A DNA stretch of 59,718 bases from Synergistaceae bacterium. GTDB taxonomy: Bacteria > Synergistota > Synergistia > Synergistales > Aminobacteriaceae. The DNA is taken from positions 1 to 59,718 of the forward strand of contig JAISUO010000097.1 in assembly GCA_031272035.1 (NCBI GenBank), written 5' to 3'. This document shows, in pieces, positions 4,249 to 35,088 of this stretch; the stretch's first letter is position 1; every line of letters begins with the position of its first letter. The notes under the pieces were generated by a model, which did no database searches, was not told the DNA's origin, and saw nothing but the letters and a program-made list of their open reading frames with translations. Both the position numbers and the translations under genes were made by a program.

Positions 4249-4280
4249 TTTTTCCGAACGATGTTCCGTATCACTTCGGG

Positions 4281-5213: not shown

Positions 5214-5286
5214 CTTACATCCCTTCTTCCGATAAAATTTCACTTAGTCAATTAAATAAATTAAATAAATAAATTAAAAAATGCAA

Positions 5287-6246: not shown

Positions 6247-6278
6247 GCGACATCCCTCCAAAATTGCGTCCGCGCTTT

Positions 6279-7751: not shown

Positions 7752-7807
7752 GATTCACGCGGGAATTGACCCGCAAAGGGTTCGGTTCATTTCCAATCCC
7801 CTTCCGA

Positions 7808-8629: not shown

Positions 8630-8659
8630 AAATCGATACCTCCTCAAATTGTGCGGCGC

Positions 8660-15789: not shown

Positions 15790-17115
15790 TCAACCCCGCA
15801 GGGAGGAAAAGACGAAGCTGGCGATGATGAGGACGATGCCGCCCCCCAGACGGGAGGAAAGCTGAGCGTAGGCCATCAGTTCCATGCGGTCCGCCGCTCC
15901 CAGCACCGCGAGGTCGCCGTTTCCGCCCCGGTTGGCCATGCAGAGCCCCGCCGTAATCGCCGAGTCGATGGGATAGAAGCCCACCATCCAGCCCACAACA
16001 GCCGACCCCAGAATCGCGCCAATGACCACGGACAGGGCGATGATCAGGTTCTGAAGGGAACCGGCTCTGACGAGATCCATCAGGTCGAAATCGACGCCCA
16101 TCCCCACCATGATAATGACGGCGCAGGTCCCCGTCATGAAGCTCTGCAGACGTTTCGCCGCGGCGCAGATGTTCTTCGGAACGACTCCCAGCATCGCAAG
16201 GACGACCACGAACAGAATCATGCAGGCCAGCTGGTGAATAGACGTTCCAAAGATCGACGGCAGAATGATTTTCGCGCACATTCTCCCGAAAACGTAGCTT
16301 CCCAGCGTGACCAGCATCGCTCCGCCCAGATCTTTAATGCTGTAGGACACCTTCGTTTCCTCTTTGACTTCGCCGCTGCTTCCCCGAAGAAGGTTTTTCT
16401 TGTCTCCCGTCAAAGCGGGAAAAACCTCGCCGAGCTTGTTGAGCAGCGCGGCGGCAAAAATGCACATGACGTTGGCGAGGGTCAGGACGATGACGGCAAA
16501 CCCGTAATAGGAGGCCGCCGGCTCCCCCGTCGCCTGCTCGTAAATCTGTGATAAAGGAACGGCCCCCGCGCCGTTGCCGCCGCCCATAATCGGCAGAACG
16601 TATTTGATCGCGATGTCCTTCATGCCGATGCCGAAGAAGGATCCCGCTGCGATGGCCAGCAGGAAGGCCGCCACCAGTCCGCCAAGAATGGCCGGAAGAT
16701 AGCCCAGAAAGGACCGGAGCAAAATATGACGATCGAGAGACAAAATCGACCCCGTCACCAGGAAAATGATGAAGAACGTCAGAAATCCCGTGTTTCCACT
16801 GATAAAATTGCTGACAGACTCCAGGTATTTGGGAGGTATGACGCCGAAATACCGGAGAACGGCCGTCCCAAAAAAAACCATCAGAAGTCCGCCTCCGATA
16901 TAACTGTTCCAAATCGGCAGACGCTCGCCAATCTCGTCGAAAACCCCGGCAATGGCGATACAAAGAGCAAGCGTGCCCGCCATGTCCGTGCTCAGCGTCC
17001 CGTGCCAGGCCGCCGTGAAGACGATCACCACAAAAAACAGAAAGAAGAGGTGCCAGGGTAATCCATAGAGGTTCAGCGTACTCAGAAAACTTTTTCTTTC
17101 TCCCAAAACAACCAT
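15790..17115 (-). CDS. citS: Citrate/2-hydroxycarboxylate:cation symporter (2HCT family)
   Basis: A 441-residue, strongly hydrophobic carrier of the 2-hydroxycarboxylate transporter family. The two GGxG reentrant-loop signatures are present: the first as PIMGGGNGAGAVPLSQIY and the second as CMANRGGNGDLAVLGAA. These are the family hallmark and lie in the two inverted structural halves. Members exchange or symport citrate, malate or lactate with sodium or protons. The position next to citDEF points to citrate, with sodium or proton coupling unresolved. It is 114 bases downstream of citF on the same strand. GGAG lies upstream of the ATG at 17115. It probably belongs to the citDEF transcript. Confidence 0.92.
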   Translation of the reverse strand: MVVLGERKSFLSTLNLYGLPWHLFFLFFVVIVFTAAWHGTLSTDMAGTLALCIAIAGVFDEIGERLPIWNSYIGGGLLMVFFGTAVLRYFGVIPPKYLESVSNFISGNTGFLTFFIIFLVTGSILSLDRHILLRSFLGYLPAILGGLVAAFLLAIAAGSFFGIGMKDIAIKYVLPIMGGGNGAGAVPLSQIYEQATGEPAASYYGFAVIVLTLANVMCIFAAALLNKLGEVFPALTGDKKNLLRGSSGEVKEETKVSYSIKDLGGAMLVTLGSYVFGRMCAKIILPSIFGTSIHQLACMILFVVVLAMLGVVPKNICAAAKRLQSFMTGTCAVIIMVGMGVDFDLMDLVRAGSLQNLIIALSVVIGAILGSAVVGWMVGFYPIDSAITAGLCMANRGGNGDLAVLGAADRMELMAYAQLSSRLGGGIVLIIASFVFSSLRG

Positions 17116-17229
17116 AATTTTTATTCACTCCATTTGTGTGTACAAAACCTGTCCCGTTCCTTAAGAACAGCACATTTCTCAATACGGGGTCTTTGGCAGC
17201 GCAGACCGCGATGGTCCCCGAAATCGAAA

Positions 17230-18783
17230 TTACAGCTCGTAAGGCTTTACCTGACGCACCACATCCAGCAGCGTCCCGTCCCTGGCCTCCACCACCGCCA
17301 CGACTCGGTCGTAAAACTCGATGTCATCCGGCGCTCCCACGATGGAATACGCCCTGTCTTTCAGCTCTTCGACCGTGGACAGCCGGATCTTCGCCTCCTT
17401 CATGGCATCGATCAGGTCCGGACGACGGGGGTTGACGGCGATTCCGTAGTCGGTCACGAGCACGTCCACGGACTCCCCCGGCGTCGTAACGGTGACCACC
17501 CGGTCGCAGACCGTGGGGATGCGCCCCCGCACCAGAGGCGTCACGATGATGGAGCACTTCGCTCCGGCCGCGGCGTCCGGGTGCCCGCCGGGGGCTCCCC
17601 GCAGAATCCCGTCGGATCCCGTCACCACATTGACGTTAAATCCCGTGTCGATCTCCAGCGCCCCCAGGACCACGAAGTCCAGCTTGTTGACAAAAGCTCC
17701 CTTGTTCATGGGATTCGCGTACTGAGACGTGGAAATTTCGTAGTGAGCGGGATGGGTGTGCACCGACTGCACCGCCCCGATGTCGAAGTCCTGAGCGTCC
17801 ACGATACAGCGAAGGAGTCCCCGGTTCAGCAGGTCCACCGTGGGCTGGGTGATGCCGCCGATGGCCCACTGCATGGTGATTCCCCGCTCCCGCATGAGAG
17901 GCTCCAGAAAACGGTAAACGGCCAGCGACGGCCCTCCGGCTCCGGCCTGGAAGGAATATCCGTCCCTGAACCAGGGCGTGGCGGCCATGATCCGGGCGCA
18001 GGATTCGGCCATCATCAGGTCACGGGGGTCCTGAGAGAAACGGGCGGCCTGAGAGGCTATTTTTTTGGGATTTCCGATTTCGTCGATGACCACCACATAA
18101 TCCACGTCCACCGCCTCGATCGACGGAGGGAAGTTCGGAAAGGGAGCCAGAGTGTCGGTGATGACCACCACTTTGTCGGCGTATTTCGCGTCGACCATGG
18201 CGTAGGAGAGAACGCCGCAGTCCGACTTGCCGCCTCTGCCCCGGGCGTTGCCGTACTCGTCGCTGGTGGGGGCTCCGATGAAGGCCACGTCGATATGAAC
18301 CTCTCCGCTCTCAATGGCGCGCACCCGTCCGCCGTGAGACCGCAGAATCGCCGGGGTACTCAGTTTGCCCCAGGAGACGGCCTCCCCCATGCCGCCGCGA
18401 ATTCCGCTGGTTTGCAGGCCAGTAACGACGCCGTCCTCGATCATCTTCGCCACGGGATCGTGGGCCGTGCCCACGGAGGACGCCGCGATGGTGATGTTCC
18501 GCATCCCCAGAGCGGCCACCTCCGCCATGACTTTGTTGATGATGTAGTCCCCATCCCGGAAATGATGGTGAAAGGAGACGGTCATCCCATCTCTGAGCCC
18601 GCAGCGGACGATGGCCTCCCGGATATTCTCCAGAACTTTGCTCTCCTGGGGTTTGACGAAGGACCGGACTTTGGGCCCGGCTTTTACGTATTCCTTCCCG
18701 TCGAGGGCGTTGTTGCCGCGATAGACCTCCCGGCCATCGACCAGAAGCTCATCGGGAATTTCTCTGCCGACAGCGTTTTTCAT
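17230..18783 (-). CDS. citF: Citrate lyase alpha subunit (citrate CoA-transferase component)
   Basis: A 517-residue CitF. Typical blocks include LQTSGIRGGMGEAVSWGKL, HIDVAFIGAPTSDEYGN and NKLDFVVLGALEIDTGFN. CitF exchanges acetate for citrate on the prosthetic-group thioester of CitD, forming citryl-ACP. The ATG at 18783 begins one base after the citE stop codon, with GGGGGAATTG just upstream inside citE. A longer frame from 18822 would overlap citE by 38 bases and adds residues without family similarity, so it is not used. It is the third gene of a citD-citE-citF run, the usual order, with a citrate carrier following. Confidence 0.95.
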   Translation of the reverse strand: MKNAVGREIPDELLVDGREVYRGNNALDGKEYVKAGPKVRSFVKPQESKVLENIREAIVRCGLRDGMTVSFHHHFRDGDYIINKVMAEVAALGMRNITIAASSVGTAHDPVAKMIEDGVVTGLQTSGIRGGMGEAVSWGKLSTPAILRSHGGRVRAIESGEVHIDVAFIGAPTSDEYGNARGRGGKSDCGVLSYAMVDAKYADKVVVITDTLAPFPNFPPSIEAVDVDYVVVIDEIGNPKKIASQAARFSQDPRDLMMAESCARIMAATPWFRDGYSFQAGAGGPSLAVYRFLEPLMRERGITMQWAIGGITQPTVDLLNRGLLRCIVDAQDFDIGAVQSVHTHPAHYEISTSQYANPMNKGAFVNKLDFVVLGALEIDTGFNVNVVTGSDGILRGAPGGHPDAAAGAKCSIIVTPLVRGRIPTVCDRVVTVTTPGESVDVLVTDYGIAVNPRRPDLIDAMKEAKIRLSTVEELKDRAYSIVGAPDDIEFYDRVVAVVEARDGTLLDVVRQVKPYEL

Positions 18784-18784
18784 C

Positions 18785-19699
18785 CTACAATTCCCCCTCA
18801 TACAGCCCGGAGGCTCTGGCAAGCGCCAAAGTGCGCACCGCGCCCGGCAAAAAGGCGATGTCCAGCATCTTTCCGTCCACCGTGAAAACTCCTATACCCT
18901 TGTCCGCGTTTTCACGGATGGCCCGCACGATTTTCTCGGCCTGACGGATTTCCTCCGGGGCGGGCGTGAAAATTTCGTGTACAGGCTGAATTTGACGGGG
19001 ATTGATGATGGATTTTCCGTCGAAGCCCATTTTTTTGTTCATGAGCACCTCCGCTCTGAATCCCTCCATATCGCCGAGGTCCGTGAACACCGTGTCAAAA
19101 CACTGCACTCCCGCGGCTCTGGCCGCCAGCAGAAGGTTCCCCCGCGCGGCCGCCATCTCCACGCCGTCGGGATAGTAGCGGGTCTGCATACATTTGCGGA
19201 AGTCTCCCCCCGAAATCGCCGCTCCGAAAAGGCGCTCCGACGCCTCGCATATGGCGGAAGCGTTCAGGACGCCCCGGGGGCTTTCGATGGCGGCCATCAG
19301 CAGGGTGCGCCCCGGCTCCGTGGAAAATTCCTTCTCGGCGGCCTCCACGGCGGCTTCCACCTCCTGAACATCCGAGGCCTTCTCGCATTTGGCTATACGT
19401 ATGCCGTCGGCCCCGCCCGCAACGCTGACCCGCACGTCCTCCCGCCAGTGGGGCGTATCCAGACCGTTGATGCGGACGATTCGCTCCACTCCGCCGCAGT
19501 CCACGGCCTGAAGGATGTGGTAGAGAGAAAAACGGGCCGAGTCCTTCTGATTCTCCGCCACGGCGTCCTCCAGGTCGAATATGATGGAATCGGGACGATA
19601 GATCCAGGCGTCCTTCATCAGCCCGGGCTGCTGGGCGCTGACAAACATCATCGTACGGCGCAGACGATTTTTCGCCTCCGCTCTTCTGTCGTTTTTCAT
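18785..19699 (-). CDS. citE: Citrate lyase beta subunit (citryl-ACP lyase)
   Basis: A 304-residue HpcH/HpaI-type TIM-barrel enzyme of the CitE group. Recognisable segments are LRRTMMFVSAQQPGLMKDA at the N-terminus, SIIFDLEDAVAENQKDSAR with the metal-binding acidic residues, AAIESPRGVLNASAI and FGAAISGGDF. It cleaves citryl-CitD to oxaloacetate and acetyl-CitD in the cytoplasm. Its ATG overlaps the citD stop by four bases (ATGA), and its stop lies one base before the citF start, so the three subunits are tightly coupled. Stand-alone CitE-like proteins of other function exist, but the gene order makes the citrate lyase call firm. Confidence 0.95.
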   Translation of the reverse strand: MKNDRRAEAKNRLRRTMMFVSAQQPGLMKDAWIYRPDSIIFDLEDAVAENQKDSARFSLYHILQAVDCGGVERIVRINGLDTPHWREDVRVSVAGGADGIRIAKCEKASDVQEVEAAVEAAEKEFSTEPGRTLLMAAIESPRGVLNASAICEASERLFGAAISGGDFRKCMQTRYYPDGVEMAAARGNLLLAARAAGVQCFDTVFTDLGDMEGFRAEVLMNKKMGFDGKSIINPRQIQPVHEIFTPAPEEIRQAEKIVRAIRENADKGIGVFTVDGKMLDIAFLPGAVRTLALARASGLYEGEL

Positions 19700-21059: not shown

Positions 21060-21956
21060 TTACGGCATTCCTGCCGCGCGGGCGGCGTTCTTCAGGGCCT
21101 CCTTCACGTCCGAATCGGAGCTGAGGCTGGGCCGATAGGGCTCTCCCACGTCCAGTCCCCGGAGGTTGGCCAGGTCCTTCGTGGCCACGGGGAAGCTGGC
21201 TTTGTCCATGGCAAGCCGCAGGGGATTGAGCCTGTACTGGGCCTCCAGAGAGCCCTCCCTGTCCCCGGATACGTACTTCTCGTAAATCGAGCAGACCAGT
21301 TCGGGCCAGAAGTTGGCCGTCGTAGCGATGGCTCCGTGCCCGCCGTGGGCCATGGTTCCATAGATCAGCGTATCCTTTCCCCCCAGCACCTTGAAGTTCG
21401 TCCCTCTGAAATTGCGGATCAGCTCCGCCGTCACCGTCATATCTCCGCTGGAATCCTTGATCCCCACGATATTTTCGCAGTCCCGAACCAGCTTTGTGAC
21501 GAGGTCCACGGGAATGCCGTAGCCCACTCGGCCGGGGTTGCTGTAAAGCAGCATGGGGGATTTGCCGACAGAATTCGCAATCGTGCGGAAATGTTCATAC
21601 AGCTCCCTGGGGGTGGGGCGAAGAAACATCGGCGTCAGCACGGAAACGGCGGTCGCTCCGTTCGCCAGCGCCATTTGGGCGAGCTTCACGCATTTGCGGG
21701 TTCGAATGGCCCCGACTCCGAAATAGATGGGAACCCGTCCGCCGGCTGCCTTCAGCGCGATTTTCAGCCCCCGCTCCAGCTCGTCGTCCTCCGGCATGTA
21801 GAACTCGCTGTTGCTCCCGAACACGAGGATGCCGTGGCATCCGCCTTCGATAATGAAATTCACCTGGCGCGTCAGTTTCGCCTCATCGATCTTCTCGTTT
21901 TCGTCCACGGGCGTGACGATGGGCGGAATAATCCCCCTGATAAAATCCGTATTCAT
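21060..21956 (-). CDS. DapA-family (dihydrodipicolinate synthase/N-acetylneuraminate lyase) aldolase
   Basis: A 298-residue class I aldolase-type TIM barrel. The catalytic Tyr lies in LLYSNPGRVGYGIP and the Schiff-base Lys in IVGIKDSSGD. The family GTTGE loop reads FGSNSEFYMP here, so the residues that bind the pyruvate carboxylate and the stacked Tyr region differ from true DapA. That, and its location after a TRAP transporter and with an HpcH aldolase, argue for a catabolic lyase or dehydratase of a sugar acid or hydroxy-acid rather than lysine synthesis. AAGGGAAC lies upstream of the ATG. It is the last gene of the 12-gene run and is followed by a strong terminator. Confidence 0.88.
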   Translation of the reverse strand: MNTDFIRGIIPPIVTPVDENEKIDEAKLTRQVNFIIEGGCHGILVFGSNSEFYMPEDDELERGLKIALKAAGGRVPIYFGVGAIRTRKCVKLAQMALANGATAVSVLTPMFLRPTPRELYEHFRTIANSVGKSPMLLYSNPGRVGYGIPVDLVTKLVRDCENIVGIKDSSGDMTVTAELIRNFRGTNFKVLGGKDTLIYGTMAHGGHGAIATTANFWPELVCSIYEKYVSGDREGSLEAQYRLNPLRLAMDKASFPVATKDLANLRGLDVGEPYRPSLSSDSDVKEALKNAARAAGMP

Positions 21957-22015: not shown

Positions 22016-23284
22016 TCAGAAAAATAACTGCAAAACCTGCGGAAAAAGGACGAAGATCAGCGGAACGAGAGTGAATCCCAGGAAAAACGGAAGTTCTCCT
22101 TTTGCGATTTCTCCCATCTTCAGCTTCGAAACGCTGGCCGCCGCAAAAATATTCACCGCCACGGGAGGCGTCATCGCGCCGATTACTCCGGCCACGCAGA
22201 CGATCACGCCGAAGTGCAGGCTGGTGACTCCCAGGCTGGCCGCCACGGGATACAGTACCGGCACCAGCAGTACGCACATCGATATGCCCTCCAGGAATGT
22301 CCCGAAAAATAAAAATATGAGGTAAATAACCAGATTAAACAGCGTTGCCGGCAGGTGCAGGGCGGAAATCGCGTTTACGATGCCCTTCGACATTCCACTG
22401 TAGGCGAAGAACCATGAGAACGAAGACGCCGTCGCGATGACGAACAAAATCATCGCGCTGCTTTTTGCGGAGTTAAAGATGGTTTGCATCAGGTCTTTGA
22501 GCCTCAGTTCCCGATAGACGAACAACCCCGTGAACAGCGCGTAGACCGTGGCCACCGCCGCCGCTTCGGTGGGAGTCAGCAGTCCTGAATAGATTCCGCC
22601 CAGGACGATGACCGGCAGAAGAATCGCGGGAATCGCACGCAGAAAAGAGATTATAAAATCTCCAGGGCTTGTTTTCACTTCGTTTTTGGGCCAATTTTCC
22701 TTTTTTCCCAAAAAAGCGCAAAATCCGAAGAGCGCCGCGACGATAACGATACCGACGATCAGCCCCGCCTTGAACATATCGACGATAGAGGTGTTGGTGA
22801 TCGTACAATAAACCACCATAATGATACTGGGCGGAATGACGGGCCCCAGCCCGCCGGCCACGGCCAGCAGTCCCGCGCAGCGTTCTTTCGGGTACCCCAG
22901 TCGAACCATGTCGGGATACATCATGGATCCTACGGCAAGCACCGTAGCGGGTCCCGATCCGGACAGCGCCGCGAAAAAGGCGCAGGCGAGAACAGCGGCA
23001 TAACAGAGCCCTCCGCGGATATTTCCGACGATTTGGTTGGCAAAATCCACCAGCCGCCTGGAAATACCCCCCAGAGTCATTAAATTCCCGGCCAGAACGA
23101 AAAAGGGAATAGCCATGATGGAAACGGAATCCAGCGCCGTGAAAATTCTTTGAGCCACAACCGCTACAGGAATTGGATAGAACATCAGCAGAGTGAACAT
23201 GGTGGCGCCGCCCACCGAAATAGAGACAGGGACCCCTACGATCAATAAAAACGCCAGTGAGCCAAACAAAGCCAGACCCGTCAT
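22016..23284 (-). CDS. dctM: TRAP transporter large permease subunit
   Basis: A 422-residue DctM-type membrane protein with about 12 hydrophobic segments. Family features are visible: an N-terminal LFGSLAFLLIVGVPVSISVG, LAGNLMTLGGISRRLVDFAN, the ALSGSGPATVLAVGSMMYPDM loop (cited in part), and GPVIPPSIIMVVY. It forms the cation-coupled translocation pathway of a tripartite carrier for organic acids. Its ATG overlaps the dctQ stop by four bases (ATGA), and it has its own GAGGAG site. Substrate is unknown; it must match the DctP-type binding protein encoded two genes upstream. Confidence 0.94.
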   Translation of the reverse strand: MTGLALFGSLAFLLIVGVPVSISVGGATMFTLLMFYPIPVAVVAQRIFTALDSVSIMAIPFFVLAGNLMTLGGISRRLVDFANQIVGNIRGGLCYAAVLACAFFAALSGSGPATVLAVGSMMYPDMVRLGYPKERCAGLLAVAGGLGPVIPPSIIMVVYCTITNTSIVDMFKAGLIVGIVIVAALFGFCAFLGKKENWPKNEVKTSPGDFIISFLRAIPAILLPVIVLGGIYSGLLTPTEAAAVATVYALFTGLFVYRELRLKDLMQTIFNSAKSSAMILFVIATASSFSWFFAYSGMSKGIVNAISALHLPATLFNLVIYLIFLFFGTFLEGISMCVLLVPVLYPVAASLGVTSLHFGVIVCVAGVIGAMTPPVAVNIFAAASVSKLKMGEIAKGELPFFLGFTLVPLIFVLFPQVLQLFF

Positions 23285-23799
23285 GTTTTTCTCTCCTCTG
23301 TGCTGTTCTCTGGCCTGTTTTCATTCACCGACAGGTTTTTTACATTCCCCACAAGCATAACCGTCTGAACGACCGTCATGACTCCAAAGCCAATCGGCAA
23401 AGCAAAATAGGGAAGATACATGGGAATACCCAGTCCCGGCGACGTCTGCCCGAAGGACAACTGAGCCTGCAGCAGGGTAAACGACGTCCAAAAAGCGATG
23501 ACGGCAAAAACAATGATAACAGCCCGGGCAAAAATATCCATCGCTTTTTTCAACGCGCCCTTCAGCCTGTCCGTTACAACGGTGATCGAAATCTGCGTTC
23601 CGTCCCGCAATCCCAGCTCCGTGGCCAGCAGCGCCATGTAAATCATGCAGTAACGAGCCAGCTCTTCGAACCATCCGACACTTGCCTGAACCAGGTTTCT
23701 ATTGACGACCTGCGTAAAAGACGCCGCCACCATGACAAAAAACGTCAATATCACAGTGAAGTTTTCTATTTTTTGTAATGTTTTTAATAGGTTTTTCAT
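23281..23799 (-). CDS. dctQ: TRAP transporter small permease subunit
   Basis: A 172-residue four-helix membrane protein of the DctQ type. The first segment FTVILTFFVMVAASFTQVVN, then WFEELARYCMIYMALLATEL with the characteristic acidic-aromatic motif, and LRDGTQISITVV are conserved. It stabilises DctM in TRAP transporters. The start at 23799 (KNLLKTL) has GGGAG nearby; a frame from 23820 adds seven residues. The stop overlaps the dctM start, so stoichiometric translation is likely. A strong hairpin separates it from the binding protein gene upstream. Confidence 0.9.
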   Translation of the reverse strand: MKNLLKTLQKIENFTVILTFFVMVAASFTQVVNRNLVQASVGWFEELARYCMIYMALLATELGLRDGTQISITVVTDRLKGALKKAMDIFARAVIIVFAVIAFWTSFTLLQAQLSFGQTSPGLGIPMYLPYFALPIGFGVMTVVQTVMLVGNVKNLSVNENRPENSTEERKT

Positions 23800-23840
23800 G
23801 ATTTTCTCCCGGGAGAACACAGCTTTAATTCGTAAATTTA

Positions 23841-23869
23841 ACAGGGCCGGTCGATGTAACCGGCCCTGT
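23841..23869 (-). terminator. Hairpin between dctP and dctQ (attenuator or 3' stabiliser)
   Basis: A perfect 11-base stem (ACAGGGCCGGT with ACCGGCCCTGT) around a 7-base loop lies nine bases after the dctP stop codon. On the minus strand it is followed by TTAAATTT rather than a clean U-tract, so partial termination or protection of the upstream dctP message is more likely than a full stop. Such intercistronic hairpins commonly raise binding protein levels over the permeases. Confidence 0.7.
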
Positions 23870-23877
23870 CGCTGGAT

Positions 23878-24867
23878 TTATCTGATGGCGGCAAGTTCCG
23901 AGTTGAGAACGTCCAGCCACTCCTGATTCAGTTTGAACTGGCTCATGGCCGGCATGGCCAGAGCTTTCAGCGCGTCGCGGTCCACATCGGAAAAGACCAT
24001 TCCGAACTTTTCCACCAGTTCCTTCTCATATTTTTCGTTGGCTTCGTGGAGCAGCTGACGCTCCAGATCGCAGCCTTCCTGAATTCCCTTGAGCAGGGCT
24101 GGCTTCAAATCGTTGGGAATCCGGTCCCACACCTTGTTGGAAATGCAGACGCCCTGGAAGGCGAAATGTACTCTGGAACGAATAGCGTATTTGCAGACCT
24201 CATAGAAATGGTTGGCGTAAAGGTTGGCAACCGAGTTTTCATATCCGTCCACGGTTTTCTGCTGAAGCGCCGTAAACACGTCGCCGAAGGGCATGGGAGT
24301 CGCTATGGCGCCGATGGCGTTATAAGCAGCCATGTGCATCGCGTTCTCCATGGTGCGAATTTTCTTGCCTTTAATGTCCGCGTTGGTTTTGATGGGAACG
24401 GCGCTGAAGACGTCGCGGAAGCCGGAATCGCACCAGCCGACGATCTGTACGCCTTTTTTCGCGGAGGCCGCCTTAAGCATGTCGCCCAGCTTCCCGTCGA
24501 TCACCTTATGGGCCTCCTCTTCCGTGGCAAAAAGGAAGGGCTGGTCCAGAACGGCCGCTTCGGGGACGAAGTTGGTGAGAACCGCGTTGGTGATGATCAG
24601 GGCGTCGATGATGCCGATCTGAGCGCCTTCATAAAGGTCGCGCTCGCTGCCGAGGGTGTTGCTGGGGAACAACGTCACCTTCAGAAGCCCGTTGGACAGG
24701 GTCTCCATCTTTTCCGCAATTTTCTTGTAACCCTGATAATGAGGGCTGATGTCCGATTCCGCAAAACCCATTTTAATCTCAATTACGTCCGCCGCAAAAG
24801 CATCCGCCGCACCAAACGCAGTCAGCAAAAGCACCGATACCGCAATGAGCCTCAAAATTTTCTTCAT
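23878..24867 (-). CDS. dctP: TRAP transporter periplasmic substrate-binding protein
   Basis: A 329-residue DctP-family receptor. The signal peptide is clear: KKILRLIAVSVLLLTAFGA then ADAFA before the mature part. Mature features include KMGFAESDISPHYQG, the family-typical LYEGAQIGIIDALIIT, and the Arg-containing ligand region KKIRTMENAMHMAAYNAIGA with the arginine that usually clamps a carboxylate. PMPFGDVFTALQQKTVDGYE is the standard C-lobe signature. It captures an organic acid in the periplasm for DctQM. AAGGAGAA precedes the ATG. The substrate cannot be read off; the neighbouring aldolases suggest a hydroxy- or keto-acid. Confidence 0.93.
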   Translation of the reverse strand: MKKILRLIAVSVLLLTAFGAADAFAADVIEIKMGFAESDISPHYQGYKKIAEKMETLSNGLLKVTLFPSNTLGSERDLYEGAQIGIIDALIITNAVLTNFVPEAAVLDQPFLFATEEEAHKVIDGKLGDMLKAASAKKGVQIVGWCDSGFRDVFSAVPIKTNADIKGKKIRTMENAMHMAAYNAIGAIATPMPFGDVFTALQQKTVDGYENSVANLYANHFYEVCKYAIRSRVHFAFQGVCISNKVWDRIPNDLKPALLKGIQEGCDLERQLLHEANEKYEKELVEKFGMVFSDVDRDALKALAMPAMSQFKLNQEWLDVLNSELAAIR

Positions 24868-24950: not shown

Positions 24951-25949
24951 CTAATCCTTTTTTTCCTGCAACAGTTTGTCAATGGCTCGATTCATGGCCG
25001 CCACGTCGTCCGGATCCAGCTTCAGATCAGCTCCTGCCGCGTTTTCTTCGATGACGGCCACCCGTCGGGCCCCACTGTCCACGTTGACGTTCGGAGCCTG
25101 AGCGAGGGTCCAGGCCACGGTAAGGGCGGCCTGAGTGCAGCCATACTTCGCGCGCAGCGGTTTCCAGGAGTCGAGAAGTTCGATCACCCTGCGGCGGCTT
25201 TCGGGCTGATACCAGGCGCACCACTCGTTGCGGGCGTCTCCGGGTTTGACCAGAGACGTCATGGTGTAGGCTCCGCTCAGCAGCCCTCTTTCCAGAGGGG
25301 AATAAGCGTGAAATGTAACGCCGTTTTCGAGACAAAATGAGTTCAGCGCACGAAAACTCTCCTGACTGAGCATGCTGAAACGCTCCTGCACAAGGTCCAG
25401 CGGCCCAAATTTGAGATATTCCCTTACCTGATCCAGCGTCACGTTGGAAGCTCCGATCGCTCGCAGTTTTCCCTCCTTCTTCATGGCCAGCAGCTCACCC
25501 ACAGTTTCCTCTATGGGGGTGAACGCCGGTTCCACCGCCTGCCAGTGGGTGATGCACAGATCGACATGATCCATTTTCAGGCGGCGCAGGGAATTTTCGA
25601 GGCTTCTGCGTACGCCCTCAGGGGAGAGATTTCGCGTCACCTGATGGCCATCCCGCACAAAAAAAGGCGCTCCCTCGCCGGTGTCCCAGTCCAGCCCGCA
25701 TTTCGTGGAAACGATGTATTTGTCCCGGTCTCCGGCCAGCGCCTTCCCCAGCACCGTTTCGCTTCTTCCGTAGCCGTAAAAAGCGGCGGTGTCGAAAAAA
25801 TTGATGCCAAGATCACAGGCCCGGCGAATGGTGCGGATGGATTCCGCTTCGTCGCTCTCCCCCCAGACGCCATCGCCTCCTATGGACAATGTCCCCATGG
25901 AGACAACCGAAACCTCAAAACCCGTTTTTCCGATTTTCATTCTGCGCAT
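24951..25949 (-). CDS. Aldo/keto reductase
   Basis: A 332-residue NAD(P)-dependent AKR. The catalytic tetrad is visible: Asp and Tyr in NFFDTAAFYGYGRSE, Lys in VSTKCGL, and His in LCITHWQ. The N-terminal GKTGFEVSVVSMGTLSIGG matches the YghZ/tas-like branch. It reduces a carbonyl or oxidises a hydroxyl on a small substrate in the cytoplasm. The ATG at 25949 lies 12 bases after GGAGGAG, slightly long; the ATG nine bases later is another option, and a frame from 25976 lies upstream of that site and is unlikely. It is placed between dhaL and dctP in the catabolic operon, so it probably interconverts a hydroxy-ketone or sugar-acid intermediate. Confidence 0.9.
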   Translation of the reverse strand: MRRMKIGKTGFEVSVVSMGTLSIGGDGVWGESDEAESIRTIRRACDLGINFFDTAAFYGYGRSETVLGKALAGDRDKYIVSTKCGLDWDTGEGAPFFVRDGHQVTRNLSPEGVRRSLENSLRRLKMDHVDLCITHWQAVEPAFTPIEETVGELLAMKKEGKLRAIGASNVTLDQVREYLKFGPLDLVQERFSMLSQESFRALNSFCLENGVTFHAYSPLERGLLSGAYTMTSLVKPGDARNEWCAWYQPESRRRVIELLDSWKPLRAKYGCTQAALTVAWTLAQAPNVNVDSGARRVAVIEENAAGADLKLDPDDVAAMNRAIDKLLQEKKD

Positions 25950-26052
25950 AATAAAACCTATCTCCTCCCTCTTCATCCGCTCACATTACAATCCGGCACC
26001 TCTCCCGATAAAACACAAAACAGGCAAAATCCTCGTATCGCGGCTCCGTCTC

Positions 26053-26685
26053 TCACCTCCCGGCCCGGTCCGCGAGGCCCTGCGCCACGATCCAGCAGAG
26101 GACGGCGCCTCCGTCCGGAACGCCCTTCGCGTTTTCCGGGGCCCATTTCGACCTTCCTATTTTCGGGACCATATCCCGGGTTTTCTCCATGCCGTTTTTG
26201 GCCGCCTCCGCCCCTGCCGCGAACGCTTCACTCAGAGCCCGCCCTGAGCCGAATGCGGTTTTGACGGCTTCGGCCATGGGCAGCAGCGCGTCCAGAACGG
26301 TGCGGTCTCCTTCCTTCGCCTTGCCTCTGGCCATGATCGCCTGCGCGAACAGGGAGGGAATCTCCGCGGCCTCCGCCTCCGTAACGGTTTCCTTTTTGGA
26401 GAAGGTTTTGCCCATCTGCATCAGGCCCGCGCAAATCAGAGTTCCCATCGTCGAGGGAGCCGCCTTGTTCAGGGCCATGGCGCATTTCATGAACAGCGCC
26501 CCCGGATCGTTCCCCTCGAAGCTGTCCGCCTCTCCGGCGATGGCTGCGGCCCCTTTTTGCATCGAGATGCCCAGGTCCCCGTCGCCGACCTGGCTGTCGA
26601 TTTTTTCGAGCTGTTCCTTCTGTTCTGAAACAAGCTCCGCACAATATTTCAGAATTTCCTTAACCTGATCAATTTTGTATTCCAC
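26053..26685 (-). CDS. dhaL: DhaL-type dihydroxyacetone kinase subunit (nucleotide-binding)
   Basis: A 210-residue helical DhaL-family protein. The nucleotide and magnesium site is recognisable in DSQVGDGDLGISMQKG, followed by STMGTLICAGLMQMGK, GDRTVLDALLPMAEAV and PDGGAVLCW. It binds ADP or ATP and passes phosphate to the substrate carried on DhaK. Translation starts at GTG (26685) with a weak AGAAG upstream. It follows dhaK by 18 bases. No PTS partner DhaM is in the window, so the pair may use ATP directly, as in two-domain kinases (inference). Confidence 0.88.
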   Translation of the reverse strand: MEYKIDQVKEILKYCAELVSEQKEQLEKIDSQVGDGDLGISMQKGAAAIAGEADSFEGNDPGALFMKCAMALNKAAPSTMGTLICAGLMQMGKTFSKKETVTEAEAAEIPSLFAQAIMARGKAKEGDRTVLDALLPMAEAVKTAFGSGRALSEAFAAGAEAAKNGMEKTRDMVPKIGRSKWAPENAKGVPDGGAVLCWIVAQGLADRAGR

Positions 26686-26703
26686 TGTCTTCTTCTGCCT
26701 CGT

Positions 26704-27702
26704 TTACAGTTTGACGAAGGGGGTGTACATGGGATCCTTCAAAAGATCCTCCAGCTCGTCGTCCAGATGGAACAGAGTGATGGATACGCCCGCCATTTCC
26801 ATGGAAGTGACGTATTCGCCGACGAAGGCTTTAGCGACGTCAATTCCCTTGGTCTTCAGGATATCGGCGACCTCGCCGTAAAGGATGTACTGTTCTTCCT
26901 GAGAGGTGCTGCCCAAACCGTTCACCAGTACGGCCACTTTGTTCCCTTTCGTCAGAGAGAGGTCCTGAATCACCGTGCCCACCATATAATCGGCGAGTTC
27001 ATGGGCGTTCATCATTTTGCAGCGCTTAACGCCCTTTTCGCCGTGAATACCCATGCCCAGCTCCATTTCGTCGCCGCTGATCTCGAAAATCGGCGCGGCG
27101 GCCTCCGGAAGCTGGCAGGACGTGAAGGCGACGCCAAAGGTGGCGATTCTCTCGCAGGCCTTCCTCGTGGTCTTTTCCACCTCCTGGAGGGAATGACCCC
27201 GCTCCGCCATGGCTCCCGCGATTTTATAGGCGAACAGAATCCCCGCTATGCCGCGGCGATCTTCCCATTTCTCCCTGGGAGCGGAGGCCACGTCGTCTGC
27301 CGCGCGAATGAGGACGGTCTCGATGTTTTCCATCCCCACCACGTCCGCCGCCATTTCGAAGTTCATCTGGTCTCCCATGTAGTTGCCGATAAGATAGAGG
27401 ACCCCTTTCCCGCCGGACACGACTTTCGTCGCGTTGACGACGGTTTCGCAGCTTGGGGAGGTAAAAACGTTCCCCACGGCGCACCCGGAGCACAGTCCCT
27501 TCCCCACGTATCCCAAAAACAGCGGAAGGTGCCCGTAACCCCCGCCCGTCACGATCGCCACTTTTCCTCTGACCGGCGCGTCCGCCCGCACAATGGCCCT
27601 GCCATCCTCAGGAGCGGCCTTCAGCAGGCCGGGATGTGCCTTCAAAATACCCGCAAGACTCTGATCCACAAATTGATCGGGAACATTCATAATCTTCTTC
27701 AT
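26704..27702 (-). CDS. dhaK: DhaK-type dihydroxyacetone kinase subunit (substrate-binding), variant
   Basis: A 332-residue DhaK-family protein. The substrate-attachment His is conserved in LGMGIHGEKG. However, the N-terminal substrate loop reads TGGGYGHLPLFLGYVG instead of the usual GGGSGHEP of dihydroxyacetone kinase, and CAVGNVFTSPS follows. The substituted loop suggests a different small ketose such as a tetrulose, or another hydroxyketone (inference). AGGAGG precedes the ATG. It lies directly upstream of dhaL and downstream of an NHL-propeller gene and an HpcH aldolase, an unusual set for glycerol metabolism. No glycerol dehydrogenase is nearby. Confidence 0.87.
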   Translation of the reverse strand: MKKIMNVPDQFVDQSLAGILKAHPGLLKAAPEDGRAIVRADAPVRGKVAIVTGGGYGHLPLFLGYVGKGLCSGCAVGNVFTSPSCETVVNATKVVSGGKGVLYLIGNYMGDQMNFEMAADVVGMENIETVLIRAADDVASAPREKWEDRRGIAGILFAYKIAGAMAERGHSLQEVEKTTRKACERIATFGVAFTSCQLPEAAAPIFEISGDEMELGMGIHGEKGVKRCKMMNAHELADYMVGTVIQDLSLTKGNKVAVLVNGLGSTSQEEQYILYGEVADILKTKGIDVAKAFVGEYVTSMEMAGVSITLFHLDDELEDLLKDPMYTPFVKL

Positions 27703-27778: not shown

Positions 27779-28798
27779 TTACAATCGGCGCAGACGGTAG
27801 AGGTTTCCGATGGGGCGGCTGCCGATAATGGAGGTGATGACCAGGTTGCCCTTCGAGTCTCCACAGATGCTGTGGCAGTTGAAAATGTTGCAGCAGAAGT
27901 ATCCGAACTGCGCCACCATCTCCAGAGAGTCGATGTCGAGAATGGACAGCCCGCCTCTCAGCTCCCCCAGATAGATGTATTTATCGTCGGACCAGACGCA
28001 GGCCGTCCGCCAGAATCCGCCCTCCACCACGCAGAGAATTTCGAAATCCGTCGAAAAGGCGTAGGCTCGCGAATTTTCCCGGTCCGCCACCCAGATGCGG
28101 TCGTATTTATCCACCCGGAGCCAGTGGGGCAGACGAAATTCGCCTATTCCCTTCCCCGGCTTTCCGAAGGTCGATACGTAATTTCCGCTGGCGTCGAATT
28201 TGTGTACCGCCGCGTTTCCGTAGCCGTCCGCAACGAACATCTCGCCCTTTGAAGTGAGTCCGATTCCGCAGGGGATATTGAAGGGCGGAGCGGTTCGCAC
28301 GATGGTGTCCGTCCTCATAAAGAACTCCAGCTCGCTGTTGTAGGGAGTTTCGGCGGGGAGGGTCCCCCGGATTTTCGCGTTGATGAAGGCGTCGGGGTCG
28401 TAGCCCGTGTCGCTGGGCTTGAATGGATTTCCAAAATTTCTGACAACCCTGCCCTCCAGGTCGATTTCGCGCACCAGATGCATGTCGGGGCTTGAGTCGG
28501 GCAGCAAAAGGGTATTGCCGGGAGTGAAGGCGATGCTGTGAGGGCGGATGAGAACTCCCTTTCCAATGGAGCGAACGAAGTCCCCCTTCGCGTTGAAAAT
28601 ACAGACGGGATGATCCAGGCAGGAAGTGGTCGCGTACAGGTTGTCTTCCGCGTCGAAGGCCGCCCCCAGCACGTCGCTGCCCTTCACCTCCGCAGGCCAT
28701 TTGGCCCAGCAGTGCTCCAGCTCGTAGTGAAAATCACCGGATCTGAAGTAAATATTGTTGCGAAAAGCTCTCTCATCAAGAGACCTGACGATTTTCAT
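27779..28798 (-). CDS. NHL-repeat beta-propeller protein
   Basis: A 339-residue cytoplasmic protein with no signal peptide. It contains repeated propeller-blade patterns of the form PHSIAFTPGNTLLLPDSS, PCGIGLTSKGEMFVADGYGN, LPHWLRVDKYDRIWVADREN and similar, with phrases such as KFDASGNYVSTFGKPGKG linking blades. Five to six blades are likely. Related proteins act as lactonases, amidating lyases or sensors; the absence of a leader and its presence among sugar-acid genes make a lactonase-like or scaffold function possible, but I cannot assign one. It is followed 76 bases on by dhaK. GAGAGGACG lies upstream of the ATG. Confidence 0.8.
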   Translation of the reverse strand: MKIVRSLDERAFRNNIYFRSGDFHYELEHCWAKWPAEVKGSDVLGAAFDAEDNLYATTSCLDHPVCIFNAKGDFVRSIGKGVLIRPHSIAFTPGNTLLLPDSSPDMHLVREIDLEGRVVRNFGNPFKPSDTGYDPDAFINAKIRGTLPAETPYNSELEFFMRTDTIVRTAPPFNIPCGIGLTSKGEMFVADGYGNAAVHKFDASGNYVSTFGKPGKGIGEFRLPHWLRVDKYDRIWVADRENSRAYAFSTDFEILCVVEGGFWRTACVWSDDKYIYLGELRGGLSILDIDSLEMVAQFGYFCCNIFNCHSICGDSKGNLVITSIIGSRPIGNLYRLRRL

Positions 28799-31299: not shown

Positions 31300-32289
31300 T
31301 TAATTATTGAGGACGATAATATTCCTGTATTTGTTGCAGATGGCCTCGGTTTGGGCGTAGTAGTCCTTCATTTTCTTATCCATGTCGTCGCCCGAAGTGA
31401 AGAAGTAGACGCAGTTAATGGCCTCGAGCTGCTGACGGACTTCCGGAATCTGAGAGATTTTATTGGCAATTTCGACCAGCCTCTCGTTGACGTAGGGAGG
31501 AACATTTTTGGGCGTGAGCAGAACGGTCATGACGTTCAGGAAATCGGTGAACAGCCCCATATCAGCAAAAAGAGGCGTATCGGGGAACTGCTTGCACTTT
31601 TCCAGGCCGCCCCAGGCGATGGGTCTCCAGCCTCCGGAGGTGAACTGGGAAATAACCTGATTTCCCGCGCCGGCGGCGTCGATATGCCCGCCCAGAGCGG
31701 CCGCCACTACGTCGGCGACGCTGTTGAAGTTGACGGACGAAATTTTGATGTCGAAATAATCCATAACGGCGGCCATCAGGACGCGGTGTCCGACCCCGCC
31801 CTCGCCGAAGGCCAGCCCGCCGGGATGCTCCTTATGATATTTGACGAACTTGTCCAGCGTGTTCCATTCGCTCTTCTCCGGCGCGTAGAAGGAAATGGGC
31901 GTGGCGGTGAAGGTGGCCAGATAGTTGAGATCCTTGAAGAAATCCAGTTCATAGCTTTTGTTGAGAATGCAGGAAATCTGAATGTCGGGAGCGTTGATGA
32001 CGCCGATGGTGTACCCGTCCGGCTCGGCTTCCGCTATTTCCATGGTTCCGATTTCTCCCGCGGAACCCGGCTTATTGACGATGTTGATGGGAACGCCCAG
32101 CTCCTTCGAGAAATAGGGCGCGATAATCCTCGTGATGTTGTCCGAGTTTCCGCCGGCGGAAAAAGGCACGATCCACGTGATGGTTTTGGTCGGCCATTTC
32201 GGCTGCTCGGCCGCGTCGGTCGGCAGGACGGAGAACAACGCCAGAACTATTGCAATAAACAGAACACACATACCTGCTTTACACTTCAT
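31300..32289 (-). CDS. tctC: Tripartite tricarboxylate transporter substrate-binding protein
   Basis: A 329-residue TctC/Bug-family receptor with a signal peptide (MKCKAGMCVLF, hydrophobic core, cleavage near PTDAA). Mature hallmarks: WPTKTITWIVPFSAGGNSD, NIVNKPGSAGEIGTMEIA, and PDGYTIGVIN. It captures a carboxylate in the periplasm for TctAB. GAAGGAGG precedes the ATG. The large number of such receptors in anaerobes makes ligand prediction unsafe. It follows tctB and precedes a hairpin and tctA, an order (B-C-A) that differs from the common C-B-A. Confidence 0.93.
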   Translation of the reverse strand: MKCKAGMCVLFIAIVLALFSVLPTDAAEQPKWPTKTITWIVPFSAGGNSDNITRIIAPYFSKELGVPINIVNKPGSAGEIGTMEIAEAEPDGYTIGVINAPDIQISCILNKSYELDFFKDLNYLATFTATPISFYAPEKSEWNTLDKFVKYHKEHPGGLAFGEGGVGHRVLMAAVMDYFDIKISSVNFNSVADVVAAALGGHIDAAGAGNQVISQFTSGGWRPIAWGGLEKCKQFPDTPLFADMGLFTDFLNVMTVLLTPKNVPPYVNERLVEIANKISQIPEVRQQLEAINCVYFFTSGDDMDKKMKDYYAQTEAICNKYRNIIVLNN

Positions 32290-32333: not shown

Positions 32334-32810
32334 TCAGAATCCCAAAAAACCCGCCGGTGTGGCAAGATGGAGCAGCACGTTGAAACAGAGATACAGCCCC
32401 GCGGAACAACCGGCGGAAAAGAGCAGAATTTTCGTGACAGTTTTCAGAGCCAGGTCGATTTTGCCCTGAATGACGAAATCCTGTAATACACAAATTCCCG
32501 CCATTGCGATAAAAGAACCCGCATAAAATCCCAGTGTGGTTATAAGTACGGACAAAATAATCACAAAAGCCCCCGGTATTGCCGCCTGCAAAAGAAAATC
32601 CACAAAGGGAAGCCTGTGATAGACTTTTCCTGTACGCCTGAAGGTTTTAAAGGCGCGAAAAATGATGCCGACGCCCGATACCATCATGAGGACGAGCAAA
32701 ACTCTCGGGTAGATCGACTGCATGAAGGACAGCGATCCCATGCTGTTCAGAAGAAACAGCGCAAAAAGGATAATCGCGCTTCCCGCCCACAAATCCTGAT
32801 CCTTTATCAT
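32334..32810 (-). CDS. tctB: Tripartite tricarboxylate transporter small permease
   Basis: A 158-residue hydrophobic protein with four predicted membrane segments: DLWAGSAIILFALFLLNSMG, then YPRVLLVLMMVSGVGIIFRA, AIPGAFVIILSVLITTLGF and a C-terminal LLFSAGCSAGLYLCFNVLLH. The pattern fits TctB, which pairs with TctA. The start at 32810 (MIKDQDL) follows AAAGGAG at a longish 13-14 bases; a GTG at 32873 would add 21 residues that overlap the regulatory spacer and has no ribosome-binding site. It is the first gene of the operon divergent from lysR. Confidence 0.82.
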   Translation of the reverse strand: MIKDQDLWAGSAIILFALFLLNSMGSLSFMQSIYPRVLLVLMMVSGVGIIFRAFKTFRRTGKVYHRLPFVDFLLQAAIPGAFVIILSVLITTLGFYAGSFIAMAGICVLQDFVIQGKIDLALKTVTKILLFSAGCSAGLYLCFNVLLHLATPAGFLGF

Positions 32811-32817
32811 GCCGACA

Positions 32818-32846
32818 TCGTCACTCCTTTGTTCCTCCGCTATAAT
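32818..32846 (+). promoter_or_regulatory. Candidate promoter of the lysR-type gene
   Basis: TCGTCA (32818-32823) and a perfect TATAAT (32841-32846) are separated by 17 bases on the plus strand. The same box read on the minus strand gives TATTAT, a possible -10 for the divergent tct operon, so the two promoters may overlap. Confidence 0.5.
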
Positions 32847-32855
32847 ATTCCCTGT

Positions 32856-32880
32856 CTTTCTGAATTTACTCACAAGAAAG
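32856..32880. promoter_or_regulatory. Candidate LysR operator in the divergent spacer
   Basis: CTTTCT (32856-32861) and AGAAAG (32875-32880) form a perfect 6-base inverted repeat with a 13-base spacer, containing the T-N11-A layout of LysR sites. It sits just after the lysR -10 box and upstream of its GTG, as expected for autoregulation, and upstream of the divergent tct operon. Confidence 0.4.
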
Positions 32881-32890
32881 GAAGATCGCC

Positions 32891-33760
32891 GTGCTGGATC
32901 CGGGAATCGAAGCTTTTCTGGCCATTGTCAGAACGGGAAGTTTCAGCAAAGCCGCCGACATTTTGGCTCTGACTCAGTCCTCTGCCAGCCAGCGGCTGAA
33001 AAAACTGGAAAAAGAACTGGGATATCCGCTGATTGACCGCCAAAAAGGCAAAAAACTCATCGTCCTTACCCCGGCGGGCCGGTCGTTTCTCGTCGTGGCG
33101 GAAAGAATGTTTTCCGCCCTGCAGGACATCAAAAAAACGTCCCTGCCCGATCTGCAGCTCCGAATCTGCGGCGTCGACAGCGCCAATACCTTTGTTCTTC
33201 CCGAACTCTACAAGGCCCTGCTGGACAACGACCCCATGGTCCGGCTGACGATCGAGAGCAGTCAAACCCCCGTCATCTATCGGCTTCTTGAGGAGCAAAA
33301 AATAGACGCCGGCTTCGTTCATCACGAATACCGCCTGCCCAACGTCCGGGTCGAGCTTTTTTTTCGCGAAGAAATGCTGATCATCCGATCCTTCGCCCCC
33401 AATCTCCCCAAAGAGGTTTCCGTGGAAGAACTCGATCCCCACAACGAAATTCGCTTCGACTGGGGACCCCGGTTCCAGTTCTGGCACGATATGTACTGGA
33501 ACCCAGCCGACTCCTACAACGTGGGCGTCGATACCGTCGCCCTCATCGAACACATGCTCCGCTTCCCGGAACAGTGGGCCTTTGTCCCTTTTTCCGTGCT
33601 GAAACGCTGGACCAACGCCCGATTTTCATTTCAGAGGCTGCGCGAAACACCTCCCGAACGCGTCTGTTACCTCATTACTCACCGTTATCCCCGGCACGGG
33701 ATCGAGGATTCTCTGGACATCCTCAGAAAAACGGCCCGTTCCATGGGGTTTTTGCCTTGA
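32891..33760 (+). CDS. LysR-family transcriptional regulator of the divergent tct-dha-dct operon
   Basis: A 289-residue LysR regulator. The winged helix-turn-helix is at about 5-62: FLAIVRTGSFSKAADILAL, then TQSSASQRLKKLEKELGYPL and LTPAGRSFL. The effector domain (about 90-289) has the usual LRICGVDSANTFVLPELY start. It starts at GTG 32891, preceded by AAGGAAG. Divergence from a transport and catabolism operon is the classic LysR arrangement, with activation by the imported acid or an intermediate and negative autoregulation (inference). Its 3' end is 14 bases from the convergent LarA-like gene. Confidence 0.92.
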   Translation: MLDPGIEAFLAIVRTGSFSKAADILALTQSSASQRLKKLEKELGYPLIDRQKGKKLIVLTPAGRSFLVVAERMFSALQDIKKTSLPDLQLRICGVDSANTFVLPELYKALLDNDPMVRLTIESSQTPVIYRLLEEQKIDAGFVHHEYRLPNVRVELFFREEMLIIRSFAPNLPKEVSVEELDPHNEIRFDWGPRFQFWHDMYWNPADSYNVGVDTVALIEHMLRFPEQWAFVPFSVLKRWTNARFSFQRLRETPPERVCYLITHRYPRHGIEDSLDILRKTARSMGFLP

Positions 33761-33774
33761 CCCTTTATAATTTT

Positions 33775-35088
33775 TTACAATTTTAGGCTGCCTTCCTCGT
33801 CAAAGCGCATCTCCCGGCCCTCTCCCGTCACGGAAAGCCGCGGATGCTTCTCCACGTGGGGCAGCAGTCCCTCCGAAACGTAAATTTCCTCGATCTCCAG
33901 CGTATTTTTGATGTACACCAGCCTGGGAGGCGCCTCCTTGTTGCCCGTGCAGGTCTGAAGGGCAACGGCGACGGCGTCCCGCTCCGTCCGGGCGATCAGC
34001 GGAATTTTCACGCGATCCAGCCGCGTCGCCGTCATGGCGTTGGTGCAGGTGGCGTCAAAGTCAATGCTTTTCACCAGGCGATGCGTGCAGATATCGGCGC
34101 ATCCGATCCCCAGCGCATTGCCGTGGGTCTCCTTCGTCAGCTCCAGCACGACAATTCTCTGAATTTTCAAAGGCCCGTCCGGCATGTGAGCGGCCTGGTA
34201 GCGGCAGGTGATGTTGGGATCCATTCCCACGCCGCTGATGTTTTTCCCCATCTCGCGGACCACCAGAACGTCGATGTCGTCGAAGCAGAGGCGCGCCATC
34301 ATCTCCCGGGAGAGCCGGAGCAGTTCCGGCTCCCGTGCGGCAAAGTTGGACCCCGGAACGGCCTCGATCAGGGCGGGAAGCTCTTTGGCGTTCTCCACGA
34401 CGGCAAGGCCGAAGGGGACCGAGACTTTGCCGAGGACGTACTGCCCCGCCTTCGGAATGACTTCGCTGAAACGTTCGATGCCGTAGCTGTGCATGGTCTG
34501 AGCGCCCTCGTGGTTGCCGAGCCCCACGCAGAGCATTTTGTGCAGACCGCTTTCGATGTCGCCGCGAAACGTGGTGTGATTTTTCACTCGATTGACCGGA
34601 ATGACGCAGTCGGCGCTCTCGTAAGCAACGCGGTCGAACCAGACCGGCAGACCGGGCAGGACATCCCCCAGAGAAACGACCTCCATGGAGGAGTGGATTT
34701 TCGCCCCCATGCTCTCCTCCGTGATCCCGAACTCCTTCAGAAGCGCCGCCTGTCCCTCTTTTGTCGCGCCGCCGTGGCTGCCCATGGCGGGGACGATGAA
34801 GGGGTCGATTCCGTGCCGGCGCAGGGATTCGATCAGGGCCCGGACGATCCGGTCCAGCCCCGCGATGCCCCGGCTGCCCACGGCCAACGCCGCCCTGGTC
34901 CCTTTTTTCAGGGCAGACCCGGCCAGGACGGAATCGACCTGAGACGCAACCCGGGCCTCCACGTCCGTCACACTTTCCGCTTCAAAGTTCTGACGCGCCG
35001 GAAAAATCCGAGGAAACACAAAATCATCCTTCCCGCGAACGCCGGGATAAAATGAACTGCCAGCCTCATTAACCTGAGATTCACTCAT
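33775..35088 (-). CDS. LarA-like (DUF2088, lactate racemase N-domain) protein
   Basis: A 437-residue protein of the LarA superfamily. The N-terminal domain shows ALAVGSRGIAGLDRIVRAL, PFIVPAMGSHGGATKEGQ and the conserved NRVKNHTTFRGDIESGLHK, followed by a distinct C-terminal domain. LarA enzymes use a nickel-pincer nucleotide to racemise or epimerise 2-hydroxy acids; no larBCE cofactor genes are visible, so activity depends on genes elsewhere. Its start overlaps the korC stop by eight bases, so it is part of the kor-suc operon. A role converting a 2-hydroxy acid isomer to the substrate of that pathway is plausible but unproven. Confidence 0.8.
   Translation of the reverse strand: MSESQVNEAGSSFYPGVRGKDDFVFPRIFPARQNFEAESVTDVEARVASQVDSVLAGSALKKGTRAALAVGSRGIAGLDRIVRALIESLRRHGIDPFIVPAMGSHGGATKEGQAALLKEFGITEESMGAKIHSSMEVVSLGDVLPGLPVWFDRVAYESADCVIPVNRVKNHTTFRGDIESGLHKMLCVGLGNHEGAQTMHSYGIERFSEVIPKAGQYVLGKVSVPFGLAVVENAKELPALIEAVPGSNFAAREPELLRLSREMMARLCFDDIDVLVVREMGKNISGVGMDPNITCRYQAAHMPDGPLKIQRIVVLELTKETHGNALGIGCADICTHRLVKSIDFDATCTNAMTATRLDRVKIPLIARTERDAVAVALQTCTGNKEAPPRLVYIKNTLEIEEIYVSEGLLPHVEKHPRLSVTGEGREMRFDEEGSLKL

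Follow-up and report, generated by a model that had tools for sequence, protein, structure and literature searches.

The closest described relatives of the locus analysed here are the PTS-dependent DhaK–DhaL kinases, represented by the E. coli structures (PDB 4lrx and 3pnl) and by 3ct4, which is the best PDB match of our DhaK and which we take to be from L. lactis. These share with our locus both subunits, the DhaK residues His56, Asp109 and His218 (E. coli numbering) and the Asp triad of DhaL; His56 and Asp109, together with Lys104, presumably have roles in catalysis. ATP-dependent triokinases and dihydroxyacetone kinases, such as human TKFC and Citrobacter Dak (PDB 1un8/1un9, by our understanding the Citrobacter kinase), have homologous K and L parts, and tetrulose kinases are represented by LerK of M. 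smegmatis, which we take to be a DhaK-family protein. LerK is an L-erythrulose 1-kinase according to PMC10733421, and the substrate-binding histidine of DhaK, shared by the triokinases, is a covalent one according to PMC6429413.

The DhaKL pair and its neighbourhood

The window, that is, the whole stretch of 59,718 nucleotides analysed, belongs to a Synergistaceae genome of 3.18 Mb in 122 contigs (98.35% complete). A sequence-only reading had recognised a DhaKL pair in it, and the Pfam matches (Dak1, 382.7 bits; Dak2, 139.9 bits) bear this out. The two genes lie 18 bases apart on the minus strand, within a cluster transcribed in the order TctB, TctC, TctA, HpaI aldolase, NHL propeller, DhaK, DhaL, aldo/keto reductase, TRAP transporter and DapA-family aldolase:

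32891–33760, LysR-like regulator, named by eye; the only regulator recognised near DhaKL
32334–32873, minus strand, TctB, small subunit of a tripartite tricarboxylate transporter (TTT); PF07331, 34 bits (cut-off 29.1)
31300–32289, minus strand, TctC, TTT substrate-binding protein; PF03401, 92 bits
29686–31182, minus strand, TctA, TTT permease; PF01970, 441 bits
28845–29594, minus strand, putative HpcH/HpaI-family aldolase; PF03328; HpaI 117.5 bits, below the 368.8 cut-off; 52% relative in the G118 cluster
27779–28798, minus strand, NHL-type beta-propeller protein; Pfam NHL and DUF5128
26704–27702, minus strand, DhaK-like substrate subunit, 332 aa; Dak1 (PF02733) over cut-off; motifs GGGYGHLP, LIGNYMGD and GIHGEKG
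26053–26685, minus strand, DhaL-like nucleotide subunit, 210 aa; Dak2 (PF02734) over cut-off; motif DSQVGDGDLGISM, with the Asp triad kept and His replaced by Leu
24951–25976, minus strand, aldo/keto reductase adjoining DhaL; PF00248; best NCBIfam match YdjG, 328 bits, below the 550 cut-off
22016–24867, minus strand, TRAP transporter as a whole, three genes
23878–24867, minus strand, TRAP DctP; PF03480
23281–23820, minus strand, TRAP small permease, named by eye from the translation
22016–23284, minus strand, TRAP large permease; 36% to a protein of L042 annotated as a TRAP permease
21060–21956, minus strand, DapA-family (DHDPS/KDG-aldolase-like) aldolase; PF00701, 203.9 bits; GIKDSSGD lysine and LLYSNPG tyrosine present

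The lysine and tyrosine of the DapA-family protein are those that we take to have catalytic roles in this family. The HpaI-family protein falls far under every cut-off applied, which leaves its aldolase activity unsure. The model of the beta-propeller protein (mean pLDDT 78.6) has generic NHL domains as its best Foldseek matches and indicates no function. No sugar-acid dehydratase was found among the 20 window proteins scanned. Glycerol genes, whose absence nearby the earlier reading had remarked upon, were likewise not found among the scanned neighbours of DhaKL, and one glycerol kinase over cut-off lies on another contig (G000:C52). Weak pieces of a glycerol-kinase profile, FGGY-like, occur at 2962–4236 in a single 751-aa open frame; they belong to a minus-strand stretch (2962–9859) that also holds ribose-type ABC genes, recognised by eye, and a BtpA-family protein.

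Two further minus-strand regions of the window deserve mention. Genes for a 2-hydroxycarboxylate transporter and for citrate-lyase-like CitE and CitF occupy 15790–19699. Close to the TTT/aldolase cluster, at 33775–35088, lies a member of nickel-pincer-cofactor isomerase group 22 (502 bits, cut-off 400). The name of this group carries no substrate; a possible guess is that the protein is a 2-hydroxyacid epimerase of the same pathway.

A GH[LM]P clade with a changed DhaL partner

Alignment to E. coli K-12 DhaK (L083), which served as the reference for residue mapping, pairs Y56 of the window protein with S54, H58 with H56, L59 with E57, G106 with K104, D111 with D109 and H220 with H218. The equivalents of H56, S80, D109 and H218 are retained, and three positions are changed (S54 to Tyr, E57 to Leu and K104 to Gly). 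The unusual loop GGGYGHLP and the covalent-histidine motif GIHGEKG are both present, as the sequence-only reading had stated; it had overlooked the K104-to-Gly change, as well as the replacement of His by Leu in the GDGDxG motif of DhaL, for which E. coli DhaL has GDADHG. With the catalytic His and Asp, the covalent His and the DhaL Asp triad all kept, the pair can be assigned by sequence to the Dak1/Dak2 superfamily; the PDB relatives of its DhaL are 2btd and 3pnl. An AlphaFold model of DhaK built on a five-row alignment has a mean pLDDT of 61.4, with residues 43–126 below 50, so that the pocket is unreadable around the motif.

The window DhaK is 36% identical to E. coli DhaK and at most 50% identical to other GHEP kinases, and the four NCBIfam models that it matches are all below cut-off: PRK14479 (422 bits, cut-off 492), TIGR02363 for DhaK (358, cut-off 406; E. 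coli K-12 DhaK scores 521), TIGR02361 for dak_ATP (259.6 for DhaK and 98.2 for DhaL, two separate genes, against a cut-off of 575) and TIGR02362 for DhaQ (225.4, cut-off 413). Two further GHLP proteins score 364 and 375 bits with TIGR02363. The PRK14479 cut-off is passed by one GHYP protein and by two fused GHEP/GNY proteins (L035 and L079); by contrast, the window subunits are separate. They are also separate in comparison with the triokinases and dihydroxyacetone kinases, the match to 1un8/1un9 being 161.7 bits.

The loop is non-canonical, but its scope is wider than had been thought: of the 112 DhaKs compared, 47 have GH[LM]P, and these come from three phyla, Synergistota, Bacillota and Pseudomonadota. 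A GGGYGHLP loop confined to a single genome can be rejected, as the motif is also present in L033/L069 and L034 and GH[LM]P extends across the clade; the Tyr is present in three of the 47. In a tree of 48 DhaKs, from which 20 near-copies and short pieces such as the split DhaK of L043 were left out, the 21 GH[LM]P rows fall into a single group (support 97/97; 98% of 200 bootstrap trees), within which the window protein, that of a same-family relative (G070) and an Oscillospiraceae protein make up a GGGYGHLP tip (100/100). When the motif columns are removed from a 112-row tree, obtained by a quick search without bootstrap, all 47 GH[LM]P rows are still separated from the rest by one branch (SH-aLRT 98), and the KNY-type kinases fall outside the clade. 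The phylogenetic placement that the earlier reading had suggested as a check thus puts the window DhaK inside a clade of its own, apparently separate from both the dihydroxyacetone kinases and the GHEP/GNY kinases. The clade has two changes in common with the GHEP/GNY kinases, K104 to Gly and GHxPxF instead of GHEPxH, i.e., His to Phe. What these kinases lack is the Leu (once Met) of the GH[LM]P loop.

Among Synergistota, the clade profile detects some DhaK in 97 of 185 genomes, but only four of these score in the GHLP range (518–550 bits; next score 413). In the bacterial family of a Mesorhizobium record, 27 scores of 505–541 bits occur in 25 of 151 genomes, with the remainder at 475 and below; 26 of these 27 proteins were examined, and every one reads GHLP. 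Title and abstract-start searches of the open-licence literature returned no paper on the clade.

The change in DhaL follows the same division. The motif, located by pattern within 3 kb downstream of each DhaK or else 2.5 kb upstream, was visible in all but 11 of 139 rows; these 11, none of them GH[LM]P, were set aside. D-x3-GD-x-D is present beside all 47 GH[LM]P DhaKs, where GDxD is followed without exception by Leu, Thr or Met and never by His. Of the 80 remaining pairs, 76 have His at this position, a count reached after the split GHLP gene L043, one of five ‘other’ rows without His, had been moved to the GHLP side. A strict pairing of DhaK Glu57 with DhaL His38, both numbered as in E. coli, is rejected, because the DhaL His is kept with GHYP (7/7), GHKP (3/3) and GHFP (1/1) loops. 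Since the clade has a single origin, the DhaK and DhaL changes count as one linked event on the tree rather than many.

Phosphoryl donor and gene contexts of relatives

The sequence-only reading had seen no DhaM near the pair and had proposed ATP as the donor. No DhaM gene adjoins DhaKL, and a distant one was sought as well: the 98.35%-complete genome yields no match to PF03610 (EIIA-Man), PF05524 (EI) or PF00381 (HPr), whereas these profiles match in five, seven and seven, respectively, of 14 control genomes. In the family sample, i.e., the 151 genomes of the family of the Mesorhizobium record, DhaM-like matches lie near five of seven KNY-type DhaKs, none of 26 GHLP and none of 23 GHEP/GNY DhaKs. 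With no DhaM/EIIA-Man match and a TIGR02363 score below cut-off, the window pair stands apart from the PTS-dependent DhaKLM systems. Within the limits of a genome that is 98% complete, a PTS route is thus excluded, and ATP is the likely donor because no PTS component was found in the genome, in agreement with the earlier proposal. The genome has two DhaKs, neither of KNY type; the other one (L072, G000:C68:2488–3474) reads QGGSGHEP, LNHAGD and GQHGEGG, sits on a very long branch and has its DhaL upstream.

The window cluster recurs in relatives. The locus of an 88% DhaK orthologue (L033/L069) reads Kor-TctCBA-NHL-NHL-DhaK-DhaL-DapA, with a 91% relative of the beta-propeller protein adjoining DhaK and an 88% relative of the DapA-family aldolase downstream of DhaKL. 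In G118, from the same order but another family, the arrangement is TctA-DhaK-DhaL-glutamate-symporter-like (GltS)-HpaI-NHL, with the HpaI at 52%, and L071 shows the same arrangement. TctCBA-HpaI-DhaKL is found in Nitratireductor (L046); Tct, DapA and DhaKL on Azospirillum, Shinella and Devosia plasmids (L041, L042 and L044); and DhaKL-DapA on a Klebsiella plasmid (L048). A DapA or HpaI match is present at nine of the 22 GHLP loci inspected individually, the window included, although this is not an unbiased fraction, the loci having been chosen rather than drawn at random and one having been picked for its visible DapA gene. The matching plasmid records number 661, of which 21 were inspected.

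Other GHLP contexts include ribose-type ABC genes with an aldo/keto reductase or FGGY gene (L045, L076 and L078), a ThDP enzyme with CoA transferases (L039 and L077) and mtnK-mtnA-class II aldolase (L040); at L070 the gene stands alone among what appear by eye to be housekeeping genes. The IncN plasmid of E. coli AH04 (L080) carries GHLP DhaKL together with a second DhaKL, an HPr-family gene, PTS IIA/IIB/IIC and a class II aldolase. In the family sample, the 26 GHLP DhaKs have within 6 kb a ribose-type ABC ATPase in 22 cases, an FGGY kinase in 12, an aldo/keto reductase in six, a TRAP permease in four, DapA in two, and HpaI and TctA in none; the neighbour panel draws on a small number of genes from mostly GHLP loci, and unlike families may be under-counted in these figures. 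A pyruvate-type aldolase as the general partner of the clade is therefore rejected (2/26) and kept for part of it: an aldolase partner characterises the window cluster and certain relatives but not the GHLP clade as a whole. Nor is the TTT link peculiar to GHLP, because TctA lies within 6 kb of five of seven GHYP-type DhaKs in the same sample (L141, L144, L145, L146 and L148), which constitute a second organic-acid-linked DhaK branch.

Relatives of the HpaI-family protein were also considered. On the genome's own contig C77, a divergent ILVD/EDD dehydratase gene and a gene for a hydroxyisobutyrate-type dehydrogenase are found some 2 kb away from such a relative; in G160, the neighbours include an SMP-30/gluconolactonase-type and a TRAP-permease-like gene. 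Both settings fit sugar-acid breakdown. No such sugar-acid genes were recognised near a third relative (G011).

Candidate substrates and rival readings

The explanation that we favour, with a probability of about 0.5, is that the window DhaKL is an ATP-dependent two-subunit kinase of a small hydroxy-aldehyde or hydroxy-ketone released during the breakdown of an imported sugar acid. TctABC or the TRAP transporter would import the sugar acid, and the HpaI- or DapA-family aldolase would split a 2-keto-3-deoxy sugar acid to yield a C2–C4 product, most likely glyceraldehyde, dihydroxyacetone, glycolaldehyde or a relative, as the substrate of DhaKL. His220 of DhaK would bind the carbonyl carbon of this small molecule, His58 and Asp111 would activate the neighbouring hydroxyl, and DhaL would hold ATP at its Asp/Mg site and transfer the gamma-phosphate. 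A broader proposal, which we hold tentatively and rate a little short of an even chance, is that the GH[L/M]P-DhaK/GDxD[L/T/M]G-DhaL pairs are a separate kinase family, acting on a hydroxycarbonyl of their own that is neither dihydroxyacetone nor a tetrulose, with a remodelled phosphoryl-transfer interface from which Glu57 and DhaL His38 were lost together.

The most serious rival, although we consider it unlikely, is an ordinary ATP-dependent dihydroxyacetone/D-glyceraldehyde kinase, i.e., a triokinase, in which the loop changes are drift and the substrate is unchanged. All three catalytic residues are kept in the window DhaK and the identities to E. coli DhaK and other GHEP kinases given above are compatible with this; moreover, D-glyceraldehyde is also accepted by dihydroxyacetone kinases according to PMC6429413 and PMC3863723, and the nearby aldolases could yield it. 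Drift, however, sits poorly with changes that clade members from three phyla all keep and that the DhaL change accompanies in every one of the 47 pairs, and with scores below the cut-offs of DhaK, dak_ATP, PRK14479 and DhaQ, while the KNY-type kinases, mostly with DhaM-like neighbours, lie outside the clade. A substrate other than dihydroxyacetone, as the sequence-only reading had proposed, is plausible because of the separate clade, the sub-cut-off NCBIfam scores and the linked active-site changes.

The tetrulose that the same reading had named as an example of such a substrate fared worse, and an erythrulose kinase now appears improbable. LerK provides a precedent, and the changes common to the GHLP clade and the GHEP/GNY group, K104 to Gly and His to Phe, speak for it: the GHEP/GNY kinases (e.g., L035 and L079) resemble the window pair in having GNY rather than KNY and no DhaM-like neighbours, and are probably tetrulose-type, LerK-like kinases, the tree being one of sequences other than LerK. 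However, matches to TIM-barrel isomerases, RpiB or GlpD-type proteins lie within 6 kb of nine of 23 GHEP/GNY DhaKs and none of 26 GHLP DhaKs (Fisher p = 0.0004, for rows that are related and not independent); the corresponding counts are 2/7 for GHYP, 1/1 for GHFP and 0/7 for KNY. No gene of the erythrulose-phosphate-isomerase type was recognised among the scanned window genes, whose products are instead organic-acid transporters and pyruvate-type aldolases, and the single RpiB of the genome is on another contig than DhaKL. The DhaL residue also distinguishes the two groups, Leu, Thr or Met in the window clade against His in GHEP/GNY.

Most improbable of all is a non-kinase, ligand-sensing pair resembling the DhaQ coactivator. 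Such a role would account for both subunits deviating from consensus at the transfer site, and a DhaQ profile match of 225 bits exists; yet the DhaQ cut-off is 413 bits, the catalytic His and Asp and the DhaL Asp triad are retained, and the sole regulator recognised near DhaKL is LysR-like.

The window DhaKL is therefore presented as a kinase of uncertain substrate inside the known Dak1/Dak2 superfamily, from a clade on which we found no study. The annotated plasmid records that we inspected name GHLP proteins dihydroxyacetone kinase. If the substrate of the clade differs, the current names would be wrong for many loci in rhizobia and other bacteria, among them the 27 loci that 25 of the 151 genomes in the family sample carry, and the aldolase-linked loci would point to a sugar-acid route for which we found no paper in the open-licence literature. 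One DhaK residue and one DhaL residue together offer a ready marker for re-annotation, and the GH[LM]P DhaK with its DhaL provides a compact, testable case of two subunits changing in a linked way.
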